NCBI GenBank assembly: GCA_023248745.1
Contig: JAHFDZ010000030.1
Location: 1 to 34,655, forward strand
Reading direction: 5' to 3'
Length of the DNA stretch: 34,655 nucleotides
Origin: Myxococcales bacterium
GTDB lineage: Bacteria > Myxococcota_A > Polyangia > Polyangiales > Polyangiaceae
The notes under the pieces were generated by a model. It was not told the origin of the DNA and made no database searches. It worked only from the letters and a program-made list of their open reading frames with translations. A program made the translations under genes and the position numbers. This document shows positions 2,217 to 32,965 of this stretch, piece by piece. Numbering within the stretch: the stretch's first letter is position 1; each line of letters opens with the position of its first letter.

Positions 2217-3614
2217 TCACTTGGCCTTCACAGGAGACATCACCATTGCGATCGCGACTTGGTTCGCAAACGTTTGAAGCGAAATGAGCGCGTCGTCGGT
2301 CACCGGCCTCTTTGAAAAGCCATTGTCGACAACAAATGCGCCCACACCCCGGCCTCCCGAGACGACAGGCACGCATGCAAAGCTGCGACTCTCGACGGCC
2401 TTCACCGGATCGCTCGACTCCGCGGCCTGCGCGTGCTCATTTGTCACGCGTTCAGCCCGACGCTCTCTCACGCATTTGGCAACAACACCAATGTGCGCGG
2501 GAAAGTGAACGTTGAGCATGCCGTCGGAGCCAACGCCAGACGCATGATGAACGACAAGGTCCTTTCCTTTATCGTCGAGGAACATGAGGAGTACGCGATC
2601 GAAGCCGATGCCGCGAAACGCGCCTTCGCAAATCGTTGTCATCATGTGATCGCGCGTGGCTCCTGACACCATCGCGCGCGAAATGTCGGCGAGACAATCG
2701 AGCTCGAGCGCTTTCTGATCGGCGACCCGCTGTGCCTTCGCCGCAACGTCGTCCTCGAGTTCGCTCGCATCGGACTCGAAAATCTTCGCGTATTCCTTGA
2801 AGCGCGTTTGCAATTCTTCGCGCGCCCATTCGAGGTCCGTGGGGCGCAACGTCAGCACCTGGAGTGCAAAGTCAATGCTCTTGACCGATTGACTCTCGTC
2901 TGACCAAATCTCGTGGGCCATCACATTGGCAAGCTTCACAACGTTCGCAAGCACGTCCCGATGGCGCGTGAGCACGTGGTGATGCCCGGTGGCGTTCCGA
3001 AGACTCTCGGCAAGCTTCCACTCGCTCAAGATCTCTTCGCCAATTTGCGCGTGGTTCGCGCCAATCACGTCGAGCTCTACCTCGATCCGGCTCTTGCCGG
3101 TCGCGACGAGAGTCTCGATGCGCTTGTACTCCTCGGGAAAGTACTTCACCAAAACGAGACGGCCAATGTCGTGAATGAGGCCCGCGATGAGCGCCTCTTC
3201 GGGCTCAGGATAAGCAATGCGTTCGGCGAGAATGCGACTGAGCACCGCCACGGTGAGCGAGTGCCGATAGAGCATTGTGAGACTCTCGGACTTGCGATCC
3301 AGCATTCCATAGAGCGCAATCGAGATGGCCAGATTGCGAATCGCATCGAAACCGATCAGGATGACCGCTTGCGAGATCGTCGTCGCTTTGACGCGACGGT
3401 GATACGGAACGCTGTTGATCATCCGCAGAACGCGGGCGGTGAGTGTTTGATCCTTGAGGATGATGTTGGCGAGGTCTTCCGCCGCACTCTTGTCGTCGCG
3501 CGTGGCCTCGCTAATCTCCGACACAATTTTCGGCAAGACCGGGAGGTCTTCGCGAAGACGGGCGTTGATCGTAGCGATGCGCGCTCGCACGCGCTGGAGA
3601 GAGAGTTGCGACAT
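2217..3614 (-). CDS. HDOD domain signalling protein with C-terminal GAF domain
   Basis: 465 residues. Residues about 20-210 match the HDOD family (HD-related output domain). They show the typical opening LPVLPKIVSEI, the segment MINS near 65-68, and a GLIHDIGRL element at 145-153. HDOD proteins usually lack phosphodiesterase activity and act as signalling or scaffold modules. A helical, charged linker (about 265-300) leads to a GAF domain (about 300-455) with a small-molecule or redox-sensor fold. No membrane span or signal peptide is seen, so it is cytoplasmic. The ATG at 3614 has an AAGGAG-like site 3 nt upstream (3618-3623). A dyad at 3668-3682 and a TATAGT box on the minus strand at 3649-3644 lie upstream. 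Ligand and partner are unknown. Confidence 0.85.
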   Translation of the reverse strand: MSQLSLQRVRARIATINARLREDLPVLPKIVSEISEATRDDKSAAEDLANIILKDQTLTARVLRMINSVPYHRRVKATTISQAVILIGFDAIRNLAISIALYGMLDRKSESLTMLYRHSLTVAVLSRILAERIAYPEPEEALIAGLIHDIGRLVLVKYFPEEYKRIETLVATGKSRIEVELDVIGANHAQIGEEILSEWKLAESLRNATGHHHVLTRHRDVLANVVKLANVMAHEIWSDESQSVKSIDFALQVLTLRPTDLEWAREELQTRFKEYAKIFESDASELEDDVAAKAQRVADQKALELDCLADISRAMVSGATRDHMMTTICEGAFRGIGFDRVLLMFLDDKGKDLVVHHASGVGSDGMLNVHFPAHIGVVAKCVRERRAERVTNEHAQAAESSDPVKAVESRSFACVPVVSGGRGVGAFVVDNGFSKRPVTDDALISLQTFANQVAIAMVMSPVKAK

Positions 3615-9626: not shown

Positions 9627-10066
9627 CTATCTTTACGATTGCGGCGGCGCGTAACCATCACACACGTCGCAAGAAGCAATGCGCTATCGGCGAATGTCAC
9701 GCTTGAACATCGACACCTTCCGGGTGGCGGATTTGGAGGAATGTCCGCAACAACGACGCTGCAGCCCCGCTTCGACGTCGGAGTTGCCGCGCTGGCACCG
9801 CCACCATCGCCCGACCCACTCACTCCCGGCACCACGCACTTCATGTACGAAGCCTCTCGCGTCTTGAGCTGACCGTCGGGACCGGCCGATCCAAGAATGA
9901 CCTTCTGATACGTCGTCTTTGCGCAAGTTCCCGAACCACCGGTGGGCAGCTTGCAAGAGTCTCCCTCTTGCGATTTGCCCATGCAGGCGTCCATGGGGGG
10001 AGAATCAGCGAAGGCGCGAGATCCCCATGCAAGCGAGGCGACGAATACAACGAGCGCGAGCTTCAT
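9623..10066 (-). CDS. Small exported Cys-rich protein with MYXO-CTERM-like tail
   Basis: 147 residues. A signal peptide covers residues 1-20, with Ala-Phe-Ala before the likely cut. The mature part has spaced cysteines in a pattern DACMGK..GDSCKLPTGGSGTC (residues 26-48), suggesting a small disulfide-bonded domain. A Gly/Ser linker follows (82-99). The C-terminus combines Gly-Cys at 101-102, further cysteines at 118 and 120, one hydrophobic span at about 126-139 and an Arg-Arg-Arg cluster at 140-142. This is the layout of the myxobacterial C-terminal sorting signal (Cys motif, membrane span, basic end), although the Cys-to-span spacing is longer than I would expect. It probably ends up on the cell surface or outer membrane. 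The function is unknown. Confidence 0.7.
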   Translation of the reverse strand: MKLALVVFVASLAWGSRAFADSPPMDACMGKSQEGDSCKLPTGGSGTCAKTTYQKVILGSAGPDGQLKTREASYMKCVVPGVSGSGDGGGASAATPTSKRGCSVVVADIPPNPPPGRCRCSSVTFADSALLLATCVMVTRRRNRKDS

Positions 10067-12401: not shown

Positions 12402-12656
12402 CTACATCTGCAGAACCGATTTGAACATCTCTTGGACAAACGACGTCCGCGGACGAATGAGCGTGACGCGCTGAGCATGAATGGGAATGAGCACTGTGCT
12501 CCCCGACGCTCCGAATCCGGGAGCGTTGAGTGGATCGTCGGGAAATTTGTAATACTGGTCGCTTTCGCTCGAAGACATCGGCGCCGATGTCTTTGTCTGC
12601 GCGAGGGCTGGAGCCGACACAAACAACGCGACCGCAAGAACACGGATCATCTTCAT
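12402..12656 (-). CDS. Small exported protein of unknown function
   Basis: 84 residues from the ATG at 12656. A signal peptide (about 1-19, cut after Ala-Leu-Ala) precedes a short polar stretch and then a compact C-terminal block starting at Asp-Gln-Tyr-Tyr-Lys-Phe. This block is rich in Pro, Phe and beta-branched residues, and the tail is amphipathic (Phe-Val-Gln-Glu-Met-Phe-Lys-Ser-Val). There is no Cys in the mature part and no second hydrophobic span, so the mature part is about 65 residues, probably periplasmic. The start is fixed by an AGGAGG site just upstream. I recognise no domain. It lies 72 bp upstream of the GST gene on the same strand but probably has its own promoter in the 300-bp divergent gap. 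Confidence 0.65.
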   Translation of the reverse strand: MKMIRVLAVALFVSAPALAQTKTSAPMSSSESDQYYKFPDDPLNAPGFGASGSTVLIPIHAQRVTLIRPRTSFVQEMFKSVLQM

Positions 12657-12956
12657 AAGACCTCCTGTTTCCCGCGTTGGACACGTGCGCCGCGTCAACC
12701 TTGGGTTTGACTTTGTTGGCGTGTAGATTCGCGTGCATGGTGCTCTTTGCTATTTTTGAAACCACAAAACATTTGGCGGCCACATCGTGAACCTGTCTAC
12801 GCGAGCGGGGAACTTCACCGACCGCGCGCCACGGCGAGCGACCATGCCGAAGGTAACCAGCCGTTCTCCACGGCTCAGCTGGCGCAAGGGCGAATTGCGA
12901 TCAATACATCCTAGCCCGCAGCAAGGCGCTCGCTGGGTAGTTGAGAGGGAGCCAGA
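12657..12956. other. 300-bp divergent intergenic region
   Basis: This is the longest gene-free stretch in the window. It separates the small exported protein (-) from the lysyl oxidase (+). It holds an imperfect dyad, GTCAACC/GGTTTGAC with one bulged base, at 12694-12711. It also has an AT-rich patch at about 12745-12775 that stands out from the surrounding GC-rich DNA. A purine-rich ribosome-binding sequence, GAGAGGGAG, lies at 12943-12951 before the lysyl oxidase start. I see no convincing -35/-10 pair and no RNA gene. Confidence 0.5.
12661..12666 (-). promoter_or_regulatory. Strong Shine-Dalgarno site of the 84-residue exported protein
   Basis: CCTCCT on the plus strand reads AGGAGG on the minus strand, 4 nt from the ATG at 12656 and 10 nt from a second ATG at 12650. 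Such a perfect site is rare in this window. It decides the start against the longer open frame to 12698. Confidence 0.7.
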
Positions 12957-14174
12957 ATGGTACTCGGAGCACACGTGTCGCGAAGCGCTGAACATCTTCG
13001 TCGTATCGCAGGAGGCTGTTGCCTACTCGTCACCGCAAGCGCATGTACTTACGGCTACGTCACCGACAGCCAAAGTGGCGATCCGATCGGCGGCGCGACG
13101 GTTAGTTTCGACGCCCTGAAGGTGTCGGAATCGCACAAATCGGCGACAACCTTTTCCGGCACAAGCAAGGCCGTCAAGACGTGGAGCGCGAGTGACCCGA
13201 ACAGCGGTGGGCACGACGGTCTCTACTACCTCAATCCCAACGGACAAAAGAACGATGGCGATACAACTTCGGTGAGTGTCGCCGCCGGATGGCAGCGCGT
13301 GAAGATATCCAAGAGTGGATTTGACACAGCAATTTTCTATCGCGACCATCAGTACTCGGACACCTGCGAGACGTACGGCTCGCTCCCCTACCCGGACGCC
13401 AAGTACCCGATTAACCTCGAGGCATCGAAGCCCACCGGTGCAAAAACGATCTGCGTTCAGCAGGATTTTTCGCTCTCACCGAACACCTCAAACTACGAAA
13501 AGCAGCCCGATATTTTGGTCGATCCGCGATCGCTCAACGACAATCAAATCGCCACCAATGGCGACTGCAAGTACAAGGACGACAACGGCAAAGAGAAGCA
13601 GTACTCAAAATGTCTTCGCATGAGCGTCGGCACACCCAACGTCGGCGCTGGCGATCTTCACGTTCTCGGCGAACTCAACTTCTGGGGACGCGTCATTAAC
13701 GTTCGGCAGCGCGTCTACAAGCGCAATAGCGGCTATGTGGACCGGGAGATCCCCAGTGACTTCACCTATGAAGATGCGCTCGGACACAAGCACTTTCACT
13801 TCATGAACTGGACGAAGCTCCGCTTGCGCAAGTACGACGCCGCATGTCCGACGCAGGGCTGGAGCGGCTGTCCCGAGCTGAAGACCGGGCGCAAGATCTC
13901 ATTCTGCCTCGAGGACATCTACACCTTCGAATCCGGCATCGCGACGGGCAAGAAGTACAACTGCGAGGTTGAGAGCGGCTCAAGGGATATCTCGCAGGGC
14001 ATTTCCGTTGGCATGCAGGACGTGTACGCCAAGAGCGTCTACGGACAGGTCATCGACATCTCTGGTCTGGCCGCCGGAACGTACTGGCTGGAGGCCGAGG
14101 TCAACCCCGAACACATCATGACGGAGCGCGACTATTCGAACAACACCGCGCGCGTCACTGTGCAGATTCCATAA
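12957..14174 (+). CDS. Exported lysyl oxidase family protein with N-terminal carboxypeptidase-regulatory-like domain
   Basis: 405 residues. The hydrophobic leader ends in Thr-Ala-Ser-Ala-Cys30, a weak lipobox, so this is probably a lipoprotein. Residues about 33-120 resemble a carboxypeptidase-regulatory-like beta sandwich (GYVTDSQSGDPIGGATVSF at 33-51). The C-terminal part (about 180-405) matches lysyl oxidase. The copper-binding block is GHKHFHFMNWTKLRL, with His277, His279 and His281. GRKISFCLED carries Lys313, and VGMQDVYAKSVYGQVIDIS carries Tyr357; these correspond to the Lys and Tyr that form the lysyl tyrosylquinone cofactor in animal enzymes. VNPEHIMTERDYSNNTARV matches the typical family end. 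Known members oxidise primary amines, classically peptidyl lysine, to aldehydes plus hydrogen peroxide and ammonia. The bacterial substrate is unknown. The ATG at 12957 is supported by GAGAGGGAG, 5 nt upstream. It is a single-gene unit. Confidence 0.88.
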   Translation: MVLGAHVSRSAEHLRRIAGGCCLLVTASACTYGYVTDSQSGDPIGGATVSFDALKVSESHKSATTFSGTSKAVKTWSASDPNSGGHDGLYYLNPNGQKNDGDTTSVSVAAGWQRVKISKSGFDTAIFYRDHQYSDTCETYGSLPYPDAKYPINLEASKPTGAKTICVQQDFSLSPNTSNYEKQPDILVDPRSLNDNQIATNGDCKYKDDNGKEKQYSKCLRMSVGTPNVGAGDLHVLGELNFWGRVINVRQRVYKRNSGYVDREIPSDFTYEDALGHKHFHFMNWTKLRLRKYDAACPTQGWSGCPELKTGRKISFCLEDIYTFESGIATGKKYNCEVESGSRDISQGISVGMQDVYAKSVYGQVIDISGLAAGTYWLEAEVNPEHIMTERDYSNNTARVTVQIP

Positions 14175-24131: not shown

Positions 24132-24157
24132 CGAGCGTGCATTCAGCGGCGCTCGTT
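24132..24157 (-). terminator. 7-bp-stem hairpin at the end of the pectinacetylesterase gene
   Basis: ACGAGCG (24132-24138) and CGCTCGT (24151-24157) are perfect complements around a 12-nt loop. The stem begins in the stop codon of the upstream gene on the minus strand. An A-rich stretch, not a T run, follows, so efficient intrinsic termination is uncertain. Confidence 0.35.
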
Positions 24158-25628
24158 ACTTGGTGCAGACACTTGACGTTCCACTAAGGTCGCCAGCGTA
24201 GAACGCCGGTTCACCTTTCAGCCATCGCGTCACCGCATCGTTCATCGAAACTTCTGCGCCGGAGATCTTCACCTGGTGTTGATAGTACGAGTCTTTGTGA
24301 AACACGATGTGCGCTCCGCAATTGGGTGCAAAAAAACTCGGCGCTCGGGCGATCCGTTCTGGCTCGTGATCAAAGTCAACGCGATTGACAAGTGTTTGGA
24401 AGTACTCGTTTTGGACCGCGATCCACTGCTCCAGCGTGATGCCTGCAAGCTTAGGGAGTGAGACCGCCTTGGGGTCCGTCAAATCGTGACGGAGCAACAG
24501 CGGTGTCGTGATGTGGTGATGCAAAACATGGTGTGTGTCGAAACACCGCCATGCGTCGCCAGTGGGCTCGTGCGCAGCTTTGCACGACTCGTCGAAAGCA
24601 GTGAGGTGGCTATTGGGGCGTTCGCGTTCCGCGTAGTCATTGCGCGCGGAGCATTCATCGAACTCGATACCTCGCGCGCCTCCGTAGCGACCCGCGGGCG
24701 TCGTTACCGTCGCTTCAGCGATCGCCGTGTAATTGACCGAGGGGTTGAACTTCGTCGCGAGCCAGTCGACATTCCTTCGCACCGCGGCGGCTCCCGCCGA
24801 CGAGCCAGCGAGAATCACGGTCTCAGCGTCCTTGAGCGCAGGCATGTTGTATGCGACCACGCCCGGCGAATCTTTGAGCGTTGCAGCAGCACCATTCTTT
24901 AGCTGCTCAATCGCGCCCTCGAGAATGCGACGTCCGAGAAATCGAAGACTGAATGGCTTGGCAGCCGAGTTCGTGGGATCGAACAAGATCGCGTTCGCAT
25001 TCGTGCCGCTAAAAGCGTCCGACGAGCAGTAGTAGAAATAAACCTGATTCCACCCACCAACTGGGTTGCGCGCACTGCGTTCGAACATTCCCTCTGCGAG
25101 CGCAGTATCGGGGTTGTAGCGCGTACTCATCTTTGTGGCGTCGTACCCACCGTCTTGAGTGCCCTGCCAGCGCGCTGAACACTCCGCGTGCCCGACGCAC
25201 CCGCCTCCGCCTTGCAAGTAGAGCACCCACTTCTTTTCGTTGCCGGGAGTCGCGGGACGTACGTACAGCTGCGCGTGAGTCCCATCGTTGCAAAGGGCAT
25301 CTGGCGCGGAGAGCTCGAGGCGCTGGAGGTCCGTGCCCTTTTCGAGTTCGTTGTGATACTTGCCAGTGCCCGCAACCGGATTGTAGACCTGTGCGAGGTG
25401 TGGCGGCGCAGGACCGTCCCAAGCCGGCAATGTGGCCGTGGGCACAAGCTGACACGCGCCGTCATTCGCATCCGCGGCATCCCCTGCAGCGTCCGAAATC
25501 GACCCGTCCATCGCGCCAGCATCCAAACGCTCAGTTACTGAGAAATCAGACGCGCAGGCGCTCAGGCACCCCGCGCATACGACTATCAACATCCTTAACG
25601 AAGCCGCGCGGCGCCCTGGCATCAGCAT
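24156..25628 (-). CDS. Pectinacetylesterase-family lipoprotein
   Basis: 490 residues from the ATG at 25628. The frame is open to 25739, but the longer form lacks an export signal at its start and overlaps the previous gene by 77 bp. The lipobox Leu-Ser-Ala-Cys (Cys25) follows a hydrophobic leader, and an Asp/Ala-rich tether comes next. The alpha/beta-hydrolase core shows the oxyanion segment YLQGGGGC (137-144) and the nucleophile elbow AGSSAGA (Ser277), as in the pectinacetylesterase/Notum family. HIVFHKDSYY near the end may carry the catalytic His. Numerous cysteines suggest disulfides. Family members remove ester groups, such as acetyl groups from pectin in plants or palmitoleate from Wnt (Notum). 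The bacterial substrate is unknown. It lies 34 bp after the PRMT-like gene. Confidence 0.82.
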   Translation of the reverse strand: MLMPGRRAASLRMLIVVCAGCLSACASDFSVTERLDAGAMDGSISDAAGDAADANDGACQLVPTATLPAWDGPAPPHLAQVYNPVAGTGKYHNELEKGTDLQRLELSAPDALCNDGTHAQLYVRPATPGNEKKWVLYLQGGGGCVGHAECSARWQGTQDGGYDATKMSTRYNPDTALAEGMFERSARNPVGGWNQVYFYYCSSDAFSGTNANAILFDPTNSAAKPFSLRFLGRRILEGAIEQLKNGAAATLKDSPGVVAYNMPALKDAETVILAGSSAGAAAVRRNVDWLATKFNPSVNYTAIAEATVTTPAGRYGGARGIEFDECSARNDYAERERPNSHLTAFDESCKAAHEPTGDAWRCFDTHHVLHHHITTPLLLRHDLTDPKAVSLPKLAGITLEQWIAVQNEYFQTLVNRVDFDHEPERIARAPSFFAPNCGAHIVFHKDSYYQHQVKISGAEVSMNDAVTRWLKGEPAFYAGDLSGTSSVCTK

Positions 25629-25662
25629 GGAGAGTCTTACGCTTGCAGTCGGGCGATCTTCC

Positions 25663-26565
25663 TCACGTCGAAACAATCTGAACGCGGAACGAATCGGTAA
25701 GCGCGTGAATGGGTCCTCCGGCTGCATATTCAAATGCAATTTCGACCACTTGGCCCCGCTCTACCCGCAAGGGCGTTGGCACTGGAAGAATCAGATATTG
25801 CATGAGCCAGTCGACCGTTCGTTGTTCGTCGACGAGGATAGCGAGCACGTTCTTCGTTACGAATCGAAGTGCGTTGAGGATGCCTGAGCCGGCAATCGTA
25901 AACTTTCCTGACCAAGAATATTGTTCAGGGTACTGATTGCGATATTCGAAGCCCGCATAATTTTGAGGGCTCGCGAGCTCTTTGGCAGCGTTGCCTTCGG
26001 GCTGTGTGGCAAAACCGTCGGCGAACATCGGCAACGGAACTTCGTAGCCGAAAAAGTCGAAGCCTTGCTCGAGCGGCTGCACGGCCATGATAATCGCCTC
26101 AGGAATGAACCGAGGGAGCGGCGGACCGAAACGGCTCAGGTACCGCTCTTTGAAGCGCGCAATCACTTCGGCCTGATGCTCTCGCAAGAGCGCAGTGTGC
26201 AGCAGTTCACAAATCACGACGTCGACGCGTGATGTCGGCAAGAACTCATACGCATCCGCTTGCACAACCGTGACGCGATCACCCACGCCGTTGTTCTTCA
26301 GGAAGTTGCGGGCGGCATCCACATTCTCTGGGAGACGCTCCACCGCAATCACATGAGCGGCTCTTTGAGCTGCAAAGAACGACATGACCCCAGTGCCCGC
26401 TCCAAGCTCGAGCACGGTGCTACCTGCGGGAACGACGGCCCCAATCGCTTCTTTGAAGCCAAGCATCCGCAGGGGGTTCGCCAACATCGGAAAGTGATAG
26501 TGCAGCGGAATGAACGCGCCCAACATGTGGTCGCCATCACGCGCCAACTCAGCTTTGGTCCCCAT
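25663..26565 (-). CDS. PRMT-like SAM-dependent methyltransferase
   Basis: 300 residues from the ATG at 26565, chosen because of the GCTCCT/AGGAGC site 6 nt upstream; the frame runs back to 26631. Residues about 20-75 align by eye with the start of protein arginine methyltransferases: FPMLANPLRMLGFKEAI, then motif I LELGAGTG (52-59) and AAQRAAHVIAVE with acidic Glu76. ICELLHTALLREH carries Glu120 and Glu129, nine residues apart, the same spacing as the double-Glu loop that binds the substrate arginine in PRMTs. The C-terminal 130 residues are beta-rich, like the PRMT barrel. The enzyme is cytoplasmic. Arginine methylation is an inference; the target may be another small amine or protein. It lies between the GH13 lipoprotein and the pectinacetylesterase-like gene. 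Confidence 0.75.
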   Translation of the reverse strand: MGTKAELARDGDHMLGAFIPLHYHFPMLANPLRMLGFKEAIGAVVPAGSTVLELGAGTGVMSFFAAQRAAHVIAVERLPENVDAARNFLKNNGVGDRVTVVQADAYEFLPTSRVDVVICELLHTALLREHQAEVIARFKERYLSRFGPPLPRFIPEAIIMAVQPLEQGFDFFGYEVPLPMFADGFATQPEGNAAKELASPQNYAGFEYRNQYPEQYSWSGKFTIAGSGILNALRFVTKNVLAILVDEQRTVDWLMQYLILPVPTPLRVERGQVVEIAFEYAAGGPIHALTDSFRVQIVST

Positions 26566-29777: not shown

Positions 29778-31550
29778 CTACTTACTTGGCGAGTCGTGCA
29801 GCGCCTCTCGCAGAAACACCAGAAGCACGCGCTTTTCCTCCGAACTGAGCGAGAGCGAACGAATATCCGGGTCCTGATTCGGCACCGCAAGACCGAGCGC
29901 TCGTCCGCCACCCTTGTCGTAAAACGCAAGAACAGACTCGAGCGTCGCAAAAGCGCCATGGTGAAAGTACGGAGCCGTCGCCTCAGCGTTGCGCAGCGTC
30001 GGGGTCCGAAATGCGTGCCGGTCAACTTCGCGTTGGGTGACCGCGAACCGTCCAACGTCGCGATCGAGAACCTTTGCGTTCGGCTTTGTTGGAACACCAA
30101 GCGCCGCGTAAATCGGTGCCGTAAAGTCCGGCGCGCGCGCGCCACCAAACGTGGGAGGTGCATGGCATCTGGCGCAGCGACCCTTACCCGAATACACATC
30201 GAGTCCTGCGCGTTGGTCAGCAGAAAGGGCCGACGCGTCGCCTTGCGCAAAGCGATCGATCGGCGCGTTCGCAGGCACGAGTGCGAACGCTTCGTACATC
30301 GCTAGCGCGCGGCCAACGTTGCGTTCGGTCAAACCGTCGGGGAACGCTTCTGCAAATTCTTTTTCGTATGAACCGCGAAGGACTGTGAGCAACTGCTCCG
30401 TCGAGAGGCCCATTTCTGCTTTCGCATGGATCACGTGCAGCGCTTGCGCGTCAGCAGTGCGAATGCGCCCATCCCAATGAAGAGCGGCTGCAACGGGCGA
30501 GTAAAGCAGCGAAGGCGTATTGCGCGTGAGCGGCGACGATGGATCGAGCGACGATGGAACGATACGCCCATCGGACCACGCTCGCCGCGGATCGTGACAA
30601 CCCGTGCACGCGCGTGCACTGCCGCGCGAGAGTCTGCGATCGGCAAAGAGGCGCGCGCCGAGGGCGACACTCTTCTGTTCGGGATCAAAGTGGGGCTTCG
30701 GCAAGGTAAGCGCGTTGACGTTATCGGTCGCCACCAGCGGCGCATACGGAGGGGCCACTTCAGCGCCCGATGCGTGTCCGAGTGCACGGATTGCAGATCC
30801 CAGTTTGCCCGTCACAACAACGAAGCCGCCGCGATCGAGCGACGTCTGCGTCGTCCGCAGAGCCGGCGGCCCGAAGGAGCCCCGCCCATCGTCCAGTTTC
30901 TTAACTAACTCGGCAACAAGGTTCTCGACGTCACGGCTCGAACCTTTCACGTCAAGGGCATACGCGCGCGCACCACGCGCGATGCCTTCGAGCATGCCCT
31001 GCAGATCCGCGAGAACGGCATCGGAACTGTCCGGCGTACCCGCAGTTGATTCAAGGGCCTCCGCTCCGAGCGCATAGGCAGCGTCGGAGAGCCCGTGCAC
31101 GATAGCGTGACGCGCGGGTGGCTTTCGCGAGAGCTCGAAATCGATGAGCTCGAGTGCGCGCGAAATTTGAAACACGTGGGACGAAACTTCGCCGCATGCG
31201 CGCGTTGTCAGCGCGACATCGAGCGCTGCGAGCCTTCCGGCCGATTCATCCATGATCACCTGGGGCCCTAGGATCACCTCAGTTGCCGCCGGTACGACGA
31301 AGCGCAACAACGCCATCGAAGCCGCAACCGATTTTCGGAGTGCCAAGTAGCGATCGCGATCGATGCATGCCGCGTCGCTCTGCCCTACGCGCTCCGAAGC
31401 TTCGTGTACGATGGCACGTCCTTCGTGTTGCAGCGATGATGAAGGTTGCGATGCGTCCACATGCACGCCAGCCTTTGCATCCGGCTGCGGGGAGTCAGAC
31501 TTGCACGCCACAAGCAGCGCAACGGCTGCTAGCGAAAGATGGTGCTGCAC
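29778..31550 (-). CDS. Di-haem cytochrome c peroxidase (MauG/CcpA-like) lipoprotein with N-terminal helical domain
   Basis: 590 residues from a GTG at 31550, which lies within the end of the previous gene. The open frame to 31637 adds 29 basic residues without a signal. The lipobox is Leu-Val-Ala-Cys16. Residues about 50-250 are all-helical and belong to no family I can name with confidence; comparable peroxidases in other phyla also carry a helical extension. The C-terminal part is a bacterial di-haem peroxidase. It has haem sites CTGCH (315-319) and CARCH (459-463), the motif RNTPSLLYSP, HWDGR, and FRTPTLRNAEATAPYFHHGAF with the usual distal ligands. These enzymes reduce hydrogen peroxide with electrons from c-type cytochromes, or, as in MauG, oxidise protein residues. 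Partner unknown. Confidence 0.88.
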   Translation of the reverse strand: MQHHLSLAAVALLVACKSDSPQPDAKAGVHVDASQPSSSLQHEGRAIVHEASERVGQSDAACIDRDRYLALRKSVAASMALLRFVVPAATEVILGPQVIMDESAGRLAALDVALTTRACGEVSSHVFQISRALELIDFELSRKPPARHAIVHGLSDAAYALGAEALESTAGTPDSSDAVLADLQGMLEGIARGARAYALDVKGSSRDVENLVAELVKKLDDGRGSFGPPALRTTQTSLDRGGFVVVTGKLGSAIRALGHASGAEVAPPYAPLVATDNVNALTLPKPHFDPEQKSVALGARLFADRRLSRGSARACTGCHDPRRAWSDGRIVPSSLDPSSPLTRNTPSLLYSPVAAALHWDGRIRTADAQALHVIHAKAEMGLSTEQLLTVLRGSYEKEFAEAFPDGLTERNVGRALAMYEAFALVPANAPIDRFAQGDASALSADQRAGLDVYSGKGRCARCHAPPTFGGARAPDFTAPIYAALGVPTKPNAKVLDRDVGRFAVTQREVDRHAFRTPTLRNAEATAPYFHHGAFATLESVLAFYDKGGGRALGLAVPNQDPDIRSLSLSSEEKRVLLVFLREALHDSPSK

Positions 31551-32965
31551 TCGGAGAACGTCTTGTCGTCGACGGCCACATCGGGCGGCGATGACGGCGA
31601 AAGGTTCGGTGGGGCAGCGAAATCGAAAACGTCCCATGGTCCTTCTGCGTTCGCATCACGACCACTGAGCGCCGGCAAGGTGAACCGCGACTCAACAAAC
31701 CTCAAGATGGAGGTGTGATCGTACACGCGATGGCTCACAAACTTTTTCTTCGCGTATGGAGAGATCACGACGAACGGCACACGAATGCCGTACTGATCGA
31801 ACTTTTGCTCAGGCGTCGCCGGCGCTTCGAGGGCAATGGTATCGGGCACGCACGCTTTGGGCGGAACGACGTGGTCGTAAAATCCGCCGTGTTCATCGTA
31901 TGTAATGAACATCGCCGACCTTGACCATTGCGGGCTTGCGATCATCGCTTTCGTAACCCCCGCGAGCCACTTTTGACCGATCTGCATAATGGCGGGTGGA
32001 TGCTCATCGGTCTTGCTGAAACCTTCGGACGCGATTTGTGGATCGAGAAAGACCACTTGAGGAAGCGTTCCGGACTTGGCAGCTTCGTAGAAGTTGGCCT
32101 CGGACGTGATGTGCTCTCGATACTTGATCACGCGATCGATGAAGACACTCGCACCAGGCGTCGTGGATGCATAAATGCCCCATGATACGCCTCGTTTTTC
32201 GAGCAATTCGAAAATCGTTGTGCCGACCGTCGCTGGAAACGAATTGCCAACAGACCCAAACGACGACGCTCCATAGAGGTACATCCGATTGGGCCATGTG
32301 GGTCCGAGCAGCGAAGAGAAGTAACGATCGCCAAGTGAGAATTGCTCGGCAGCCCAATACATGAACGGCAAGTCTGCCTTCTCGTAATAGGTAAGACTGC
32401 GATCGCCGCTCAGAAGCTCTGGTTTGTCTTTGCCACCGGCAGGAAGTTCGTGGTGACCGTCGTTGGTCCTGAAGAAGCCGTCCATCTTCGAGTCCTTGCC
32501 AACTTGGTCGTGCACGTCGGTCCAGCCGTGTGCGGTGTCAACTAAGCAAAGGCGGTTGTCGCGATGAATGGTGACCGGCGTTCCGCCCGTGCCGAGATTC
32601 GAAAAGTCAGCAGGCGCGACGTCGACATCGAGGCCCGCCTCTTTTCCTTTTTGGAAGTAATGATCAAACGAGCGATTCTCCATCATGACGATCACGATGG
32701 TGTCGATCGGCAGGCTCTTGCCCGTCGGATGCGAAGCGCCCTGCGTCTCGGCAGGCAGCGCGCCTTGGGCATAGGTGCATGATGCACGATTTGTATTCGC
32801 GGCGTCATCGGAAGGCGCCGTGATTGGCTTGTCCCACTCTGGGACGTCGTTCCACGTGAGCGCTGCATCGACTCCGCCGTCGGGTAACGGCTCTACCTTT
32901 GCGGTCTGAGAGCAAGCGAGCAACGTCGTCGTTGAGGCGCAGAGCGCGAGGGACCGCAGGAGCAT
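31529..32965 (-). CDS. LPLC-type phosphoesterase (phospholipase C/acid phosphatase family) lipoprotein
   Basis: 478 residues. The signal ends in Leu-Leu-Ala-Cys18, a good lipobox, so the protein is membrane-tethered. The phosphoesterase family (Phosphoesterase, PF04185 type) is shown by IVIVMMENRSFDHYF (90-104), SLLGPTWPNRMYLY, and ITYDEHGGFYDHVVPPKAC (about 354-372), with HTSILRFVESRF towards the end. The Glu/Asn/Arg/His cluster binds the catalytic metal or phosphate. Characterised relatives cleave phosphatidylcholine or sphingomyelin, or act as acid phosphatases. The exact substrate cannot be read. Its last 22 bases contain the start of the cytochrome c peroxidase gene, indicating translational coupling. 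Confidence 0.9.
   Translation of the reverse strand: MLLRSLALCASTTTLLACSQTAKVEPLPDGGVDAALTWNDVPEWDKPITAPSDDAANTNRASCTYAQGALPAETQGASHPTGKSLPIDTIVIVMMENRSFDHYFQKGKEAGLDVDVAPADFSNLGTGGTPVTIHRDNRLCLVDTAHGWTDVHDQVGKDSKMDGFFRTNDGHHELPAGGKDKPELLSGDRSLTYYEKADLPFMYWAAEQFSLGDRYFSSLLGPTWPNRMYLYGASSFGSVGNSFPATVGTTIFELLEKRGVSWGIYASTTPGASVFIDRVIKYREHITSEANFYEAAKSGTLPQVVFLDPQIASEGFSKTDEHPPAIMQIGQKWLAGVTKAMIASPQWSRSAMFITYDEHGGFYDHVVPPKACVPDTIALEAPATPEQKFDQYGIRVPFVVISPYAKKKFVSHRVYDHTSILRFVESRFTLPALSGRDANAEGPWDVFDFAAPPNLSPSSPPDVAVDDKTFSECSTIFR

Follow-up and report, generated by a model that had tools for sequence, protein, structure and literature searches.

The window, a 34,655-nucleotide stretch of DNA from a Myxococcales bacterium, carries on its forward strand an intact open reading frame (positions 12,957–14,174) encoding a 405-residue protein of the lysyl oxidase (LOX) family; in animals this copper enzyme forms the cross-links of connective tissue. 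The protein matches the Pfam family PF01186 (Lysyl_oxidase) over residues 276–402 with an E value of 2.2e-18. Its score of 67.1 bits is well over the cut-off (20.4) but below that of most LOX proteins of the phylum, which reach 142 bits. No match was returned by NCBIfam or PHROGs, and a scan for promoters and terminators gave signals at or below chance. The gene is the sole PF01186 match in its own genome; it has a 68%-identical orthologue (L001), with a dN/dS of about 0.1.

The catalytic domain (residues 184–405; 13,506–14,171, forward strand) opens with PDILVDPRSL, where other bacterial LOX domains start with PDL, and when aligned with the phylum's other LOX domains it proved to be entire, from PDILVDP at residue 184 through the C-terminus. 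The only solved relative found by phmmer among all PDB structures is human LOXL2 (5ZE3, E = 5.7e-07), which, together with a Pfam score well over the cut-off, upholds the first-pass annotation of the gene as a bacterial lysyl oxidase. In the phmmer alignment K313 (13,893–13,895) and Y357 (14,025–14,027), the residues on which that annotation had staked its cofactor prediction, fall on 5ZE3 chain positions 336 and 372. If numbering of the 457-residue chain begins at 318 (an inferred offset of 317 that fits both residues), these positions correspond to Lys653 and Tyr689, the precursors of lysine tyrosylquinone in LOXL2 (PMC9180022), and K313 and Y357 are the predicted quinone precursors here. 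The misalignment that would have refuted the first-pass annotation was looked for in this way and not seen. A profile built from six subfamily members matches LOXL2 at an E value of 3.5e-15 and also aligns the copper motif H277-K-H279-F-H281 (13,785–13,799) with that of LOXL2, as had been proposed for these histidines. The ending D392-Y-S-N-N396 (14,130–14,144), common to animal LOX and rightly read as animal-like, lies in RDYSNN, which corresponds to SDYSNN in LOXL2. By alignment, C317 (13,905–13,907) and C336 (13,962–13,964) are equivalent to Cys657 of LOXL2 and its partner Cys673.

The cofactor residues are retained in about 94% of 94 LOX domains across the phylum, within surrounding sequence that diverges: among 11 relatives sharing the architecture, 10 keep HxHxH and all keep Lys and Tyr, and among the 83 other domains compared the counts for HxHxH, Lys and Tyr are 78, 78 and 79. 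Structure models, built from 2 alignment rows for the full protein and from 3 for the LOX domain, reached pLDDT values of 34 and 41, too low to locate the cofactor residues in space, and a Foldseek search with the low-confidence model ranked 5ZE3 at the top with an E value of 0.56, which is not significant.

The N-terminal half of the protein begins with a predicted signal peptide of the lipoprotein type (residues 1–29; 12,957–13,043, forward strand), ending in the lipobox TASA-C30. The Cys column of this lipobox is shared with the orthologue, in which the sequence is canonical (ALSG-C), and with two relatives (AVSG-C and HLSA-C) from the distant taxonomic family f26. The export signal noted earlier is supported and can be refined to a putative lipoprotein signal; its sequence suggests that the protein, instead of being released, is probably anchored in the periplasm or on the cell surface. 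Next comes an N-terminal domain (residues 30–183; 13,044–13,505, forward strand), in which resemblance to CarboxypepD_reg (PF13620) is confined to residues 33–68 and scores 22.6 bits against a gathering score of 32.3; such sub-threshold resemblance was found in two of six subfamily members. Five residues of this half, W112, Y128 and R129 (of the FYR motif), C137 and C166, are invariant in the six aligned members, and so are the His, Lys and Tyr cofactor residues of the other half. Judged by this alignment, the region is a conserved domain in its own right, of roughly 150 residues and weakly CarboxypepD_reg-like. The carboxypeptidase-regulatory-like domain proposed for this region accordingly stands as an added domain; its Pfam match lies below the cut-off and a regulatory role found no support.

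Within the phylum, relatives carrying the N-terminal domain were found in three families: f1, which contains the organism's own genus, f26 and f30. The N-terminal stretch used alone as a query led to proteins of f26 in which LOX domains follow it, and a profile of the domain, run on the set of loci examined, picked out 14 different proteins with LOX and, at an E value of 0.1, no LOX protein outside that group. A full-length profile recovered the whole order in f1, in f26 (complete in ten genomes, fragmented in one) and in f30 (genome G271), whereas other LOX proteins of the phylum match it in the LOX part only. The full architecture, a lipobox or signal followed by the N-terminal domain and LOX, thereby extends over three families and about a dozen genomes. 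The f26 (for example, L069 and L068) and f30 (L086) proteins share this order and the motifs with the window protein but are only about 30% identical to it, and L086 has no Cys at the lipobox column. In a tree of LOX domains, the 13 rows with the N-terminal domain lie on one side of a single branch with a support of 66, rising to 77 without the long-branched L086, and none of 500 shuffles was as clustered as these 13 rows. The full-length order shared by three families and the grouping of the LOX domains in the tree together define a real subfamily with an old architecture. The nearest relatives lie in f26 and most of f1 does not have the architecture, a distribution that could mean transfer between lineages. 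The first-pass annotation had remarked on a domain order unfamiliar from animal enzymes; the N-terminal domain does differ from that of LOXL2, and the order recurs within the phylum. Searches of the literature (open-licence papers) returned no account of a lipoprotein LOX subfamily with this N-terminal domain.

Members of the subfamily vary around this common core. The f26 proteins (L069, L068, L070 and L072) have an additional conserved C-terminal tail with cysteines (DC...CPDYL), and L070, L072 and L077 carry Cys-rich repeats ahead of the N-terminal domain. In L077 (genome G073, contig 307) the His motif is lost (SGQPRF) and the quinone Lys and Tyr are kept, which suggests that the family can lose copper binding.

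The orthologue L001 belongs to the metagenome-assembled genome Myxococcales bacterium nzgw255, which is probably the same-genus genome G380, where the match sits at the same contig coordinates give or take a few bases. Identity to it is 76% in the LOX half and 61% in the remainder of the protein. The dN values against it are 0.17 for the LOX domain and 0.29 for the N-terminal domain, and the dS values, which are close to saturation, are 1.7 and 2.5, giving dN/dS ratios of about 0.10 and 0.12. With dN this low relative to dS, purifying selection acts on both halves. Two of the four genomes of the genus do not contain the gene, and those two are the less complete.

A 2015 paper reported LOX genes from both bacteria and archaea (PMC4448552), and one from 2018 noted that the Lys and Tyr are conserved in LOX of myxobacteria (PMC6508830); PF01186 matches occur in 83 of the 379 genomes of our phylum sample. 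Bacterial lysyl oxidases are therefore already known, and the novelty here is a variant with an extra domain, not the kind of enzyme. The prokaryotic LOX proteins described previously are, in all but three cases, LOX-only (PMC4448552). The window protein shares the catalytic residues with those of Plesiocystis, Stigmatella and other bacteria (PMC4448552, PMC6508830) but belongs to a clade that has the N-terminal domain and in which other residues stand in for the Cys ahead of the His motif and for the CQW Cys. From LOXL2, with which it shares the copper His motif, the Lys653/Tyr689 and Cys657–Cys673 equivalents and the DYSNN ending, it differs in its lipoprotein-type signal and in having an N-terminal domain of another kind; Pfam found no SRCR domains, as present in animal LOXL2/3/4. 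The disulfide bonds of LOXL2 join Cys573–625, 579–695, 657–673, 663–685 and 732–746 (PMC9180022), and four of the five are not preserved: both partners exist only for 657–673 (C317 and C336), and the positions of Cys625 and Cys695 are occupied by residues other than Cys. Like other bacterial sequences, the protein has no counterpart of His289 of LOX, which comes first in the animal copper talon and is reported to be dispensable (PMC4448552).

A characterized prokaryotic relative with identical His, Lys and Tyr residues is HTU-LOX of Haloterrigena turkmenica, an active amine oxidase after refolding with copper that is inhibited by 3-aminopropionitrile and oxidizes many small primary amines, aminoglycosides and polymyxin, as well as protein lysines (PMC6452851). 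It differs from the window protein in being archaeal and 308 residues long, with an N-terminal part described as an autoinhibitory propeptide, not a folded domain (PMC6452851).

Other arrangements of the LOX domain were encountered in the course of these comparisons. Four proteins (L053, L054, L055 and L062) contain two tandem LOX domains each, the first without the His, Lys and Tyr residues (ESV or AQL, L and Q, respectively, where aligned) and the second retaining them, so that each protein pairs a catalytic domain with a pseudo-enzyme. A large phage genome encodes a lysyl oxidase of 209 residues that begins like a lipoprotein and has HxHxH, Lys and Tyr all present (PF01186, E = 4.6e-28). 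The gene lies at positions 2,860–3,489 of locus L105 (IMG/VR contig IMGVR_UViG_3300022562_001652, 113,815 bases), and also at 10,001–10,627 of L110. On the same strand lie genes for a DNA polymerase, a UvsX-like recombinase, SbcC/SbcD, a RusA resolvase, which overlaps the end of the LOX gene, and the terminase large subunit. This protein had no match among 50,697 phage records, and a lysyl oxidase carried by a phage may be unreported. A search of Viral_contigs with the alignment of the N-terminal-domain subfamily found no relative.

In the window, the LOX gene is preceded by a gene for a GST-like protein and followed by genes for a GNAT acetyltransferase and a BacA/UppP phosphatase. These neighbours are functionally unrelated to LOX and differ from those on the orthologue's contig, so they provide no operon or guilt-by-association clue. 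Just upstream, in divergent orientation, lies a gene for a small, putatively exported protein with no Pfam match (12,402–12,698, reverse strand). Also on the reverse strand are a lipoprotein-like gene of the pectinacetylesterase family (24,156–25,739), a phosphoesterase-family gene of the phospholipase C/acid phosphatase type (31,529–32,965) and a CCP_MauG di-haem peroxidase gene (29,778–31,637), 16 kb from the LOX gene and with no evidence of a link to it. Members of the CCP_MauG family include an enzyme that makes a different protein-derived quinone, as well as enzymes that use peroxide. Collagen-like repeats, considered as a clue to the substrate, were uninformative, since 55 of the 60 family genomes gave matches, many of them in frames of GC-rich DNA. 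Neither the neighbourhood nor any other source yielded a substrate clue, which leaves the roles suggested in the first-pass annotation, that the bacterium cross-links proteins of its own or attacks the matrix of a host or of prey, without support.

With all of the cofactor residues present and HTU-LOX as a characterized prokaryotic precedent, the best reading of the protein is a copper- and quinone-dependent amine oxidase; we consider it quite likely, from its sequence, to be an exported, lipid-anchored member of the lysyl oxidase family. Once outside, the protein would bind Cu2+ through H277, H279 and H281, and Y357 would be oxidized and then cross-linked to K313, forming lysine tyrosylquinone. 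The enzyme would convert primary amines to aldehydes, ammonia and hydrogen peroxide, its substrates probably being lysines whose side chains are exposed on proteins or peptides, and possibly small amines too. The N-terminal domain, presumably β-rich, would most likely position the catalytic domain or bind a partner at the cell surface.

The range of amines acted on by HTU-LOX (PMC6452851), and nearby genes that encode no substrate-like matrix protein, would both suit a scavenging or detoxifying oxidase for small amines or amine-bearing antibiotics in place of a protein cross-linker. This is a possibility to be taken seriously, if still an improbable one: HTU-LOX acts on protein lysines as well, surface anchoring is compatible with small-amine and protein substrates alike, and sequence does not separate the two options. 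That the protein retains the LOX fold and acts without catalysis, as a structural or binding lipoprotein, appears unlikely. Degenerate LOX domains do exist in the phylum, in the first copies of the four tandem proteins and in L077 and L097, but all five cofactor residues are kept both in the window protein and in its 68%-identical orthologue, and constraint is stronger in the LOX half than elsewhere. An enzyme directed at prey or host matrix, put forward in the first-pass annotation for a phylum in which many members are predators, is very doubtful, since genes for secretion, predation or adhesion are not linked to this one, the predicted lipid anchor speaks against release, and two of the four genus genomes, though the less complete ones, do not contain it.

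For the lipid-anchored amine oxidase favoured here, one further role can be put forward tentatively, as a conjecture we would rate as rather improbable: that this surface-anchored subfamily with its own N-terminal domain, spread over at least three families of one phylum, uses aldehydes derived from lysine to link surface or matrix proteins of the bacterium itself covalently to one another. To our knowledge, such physiological cross-linking chemistry is so far known from animals. In prokaryotes, the natural function of LOX has been called cryptic (PMC6452851). With its fixed domain order, predicted surface anchor and reduced set of disulfide bonds, the subfamily offers a defined protein with which bacterial self-cross-linking may be tested.
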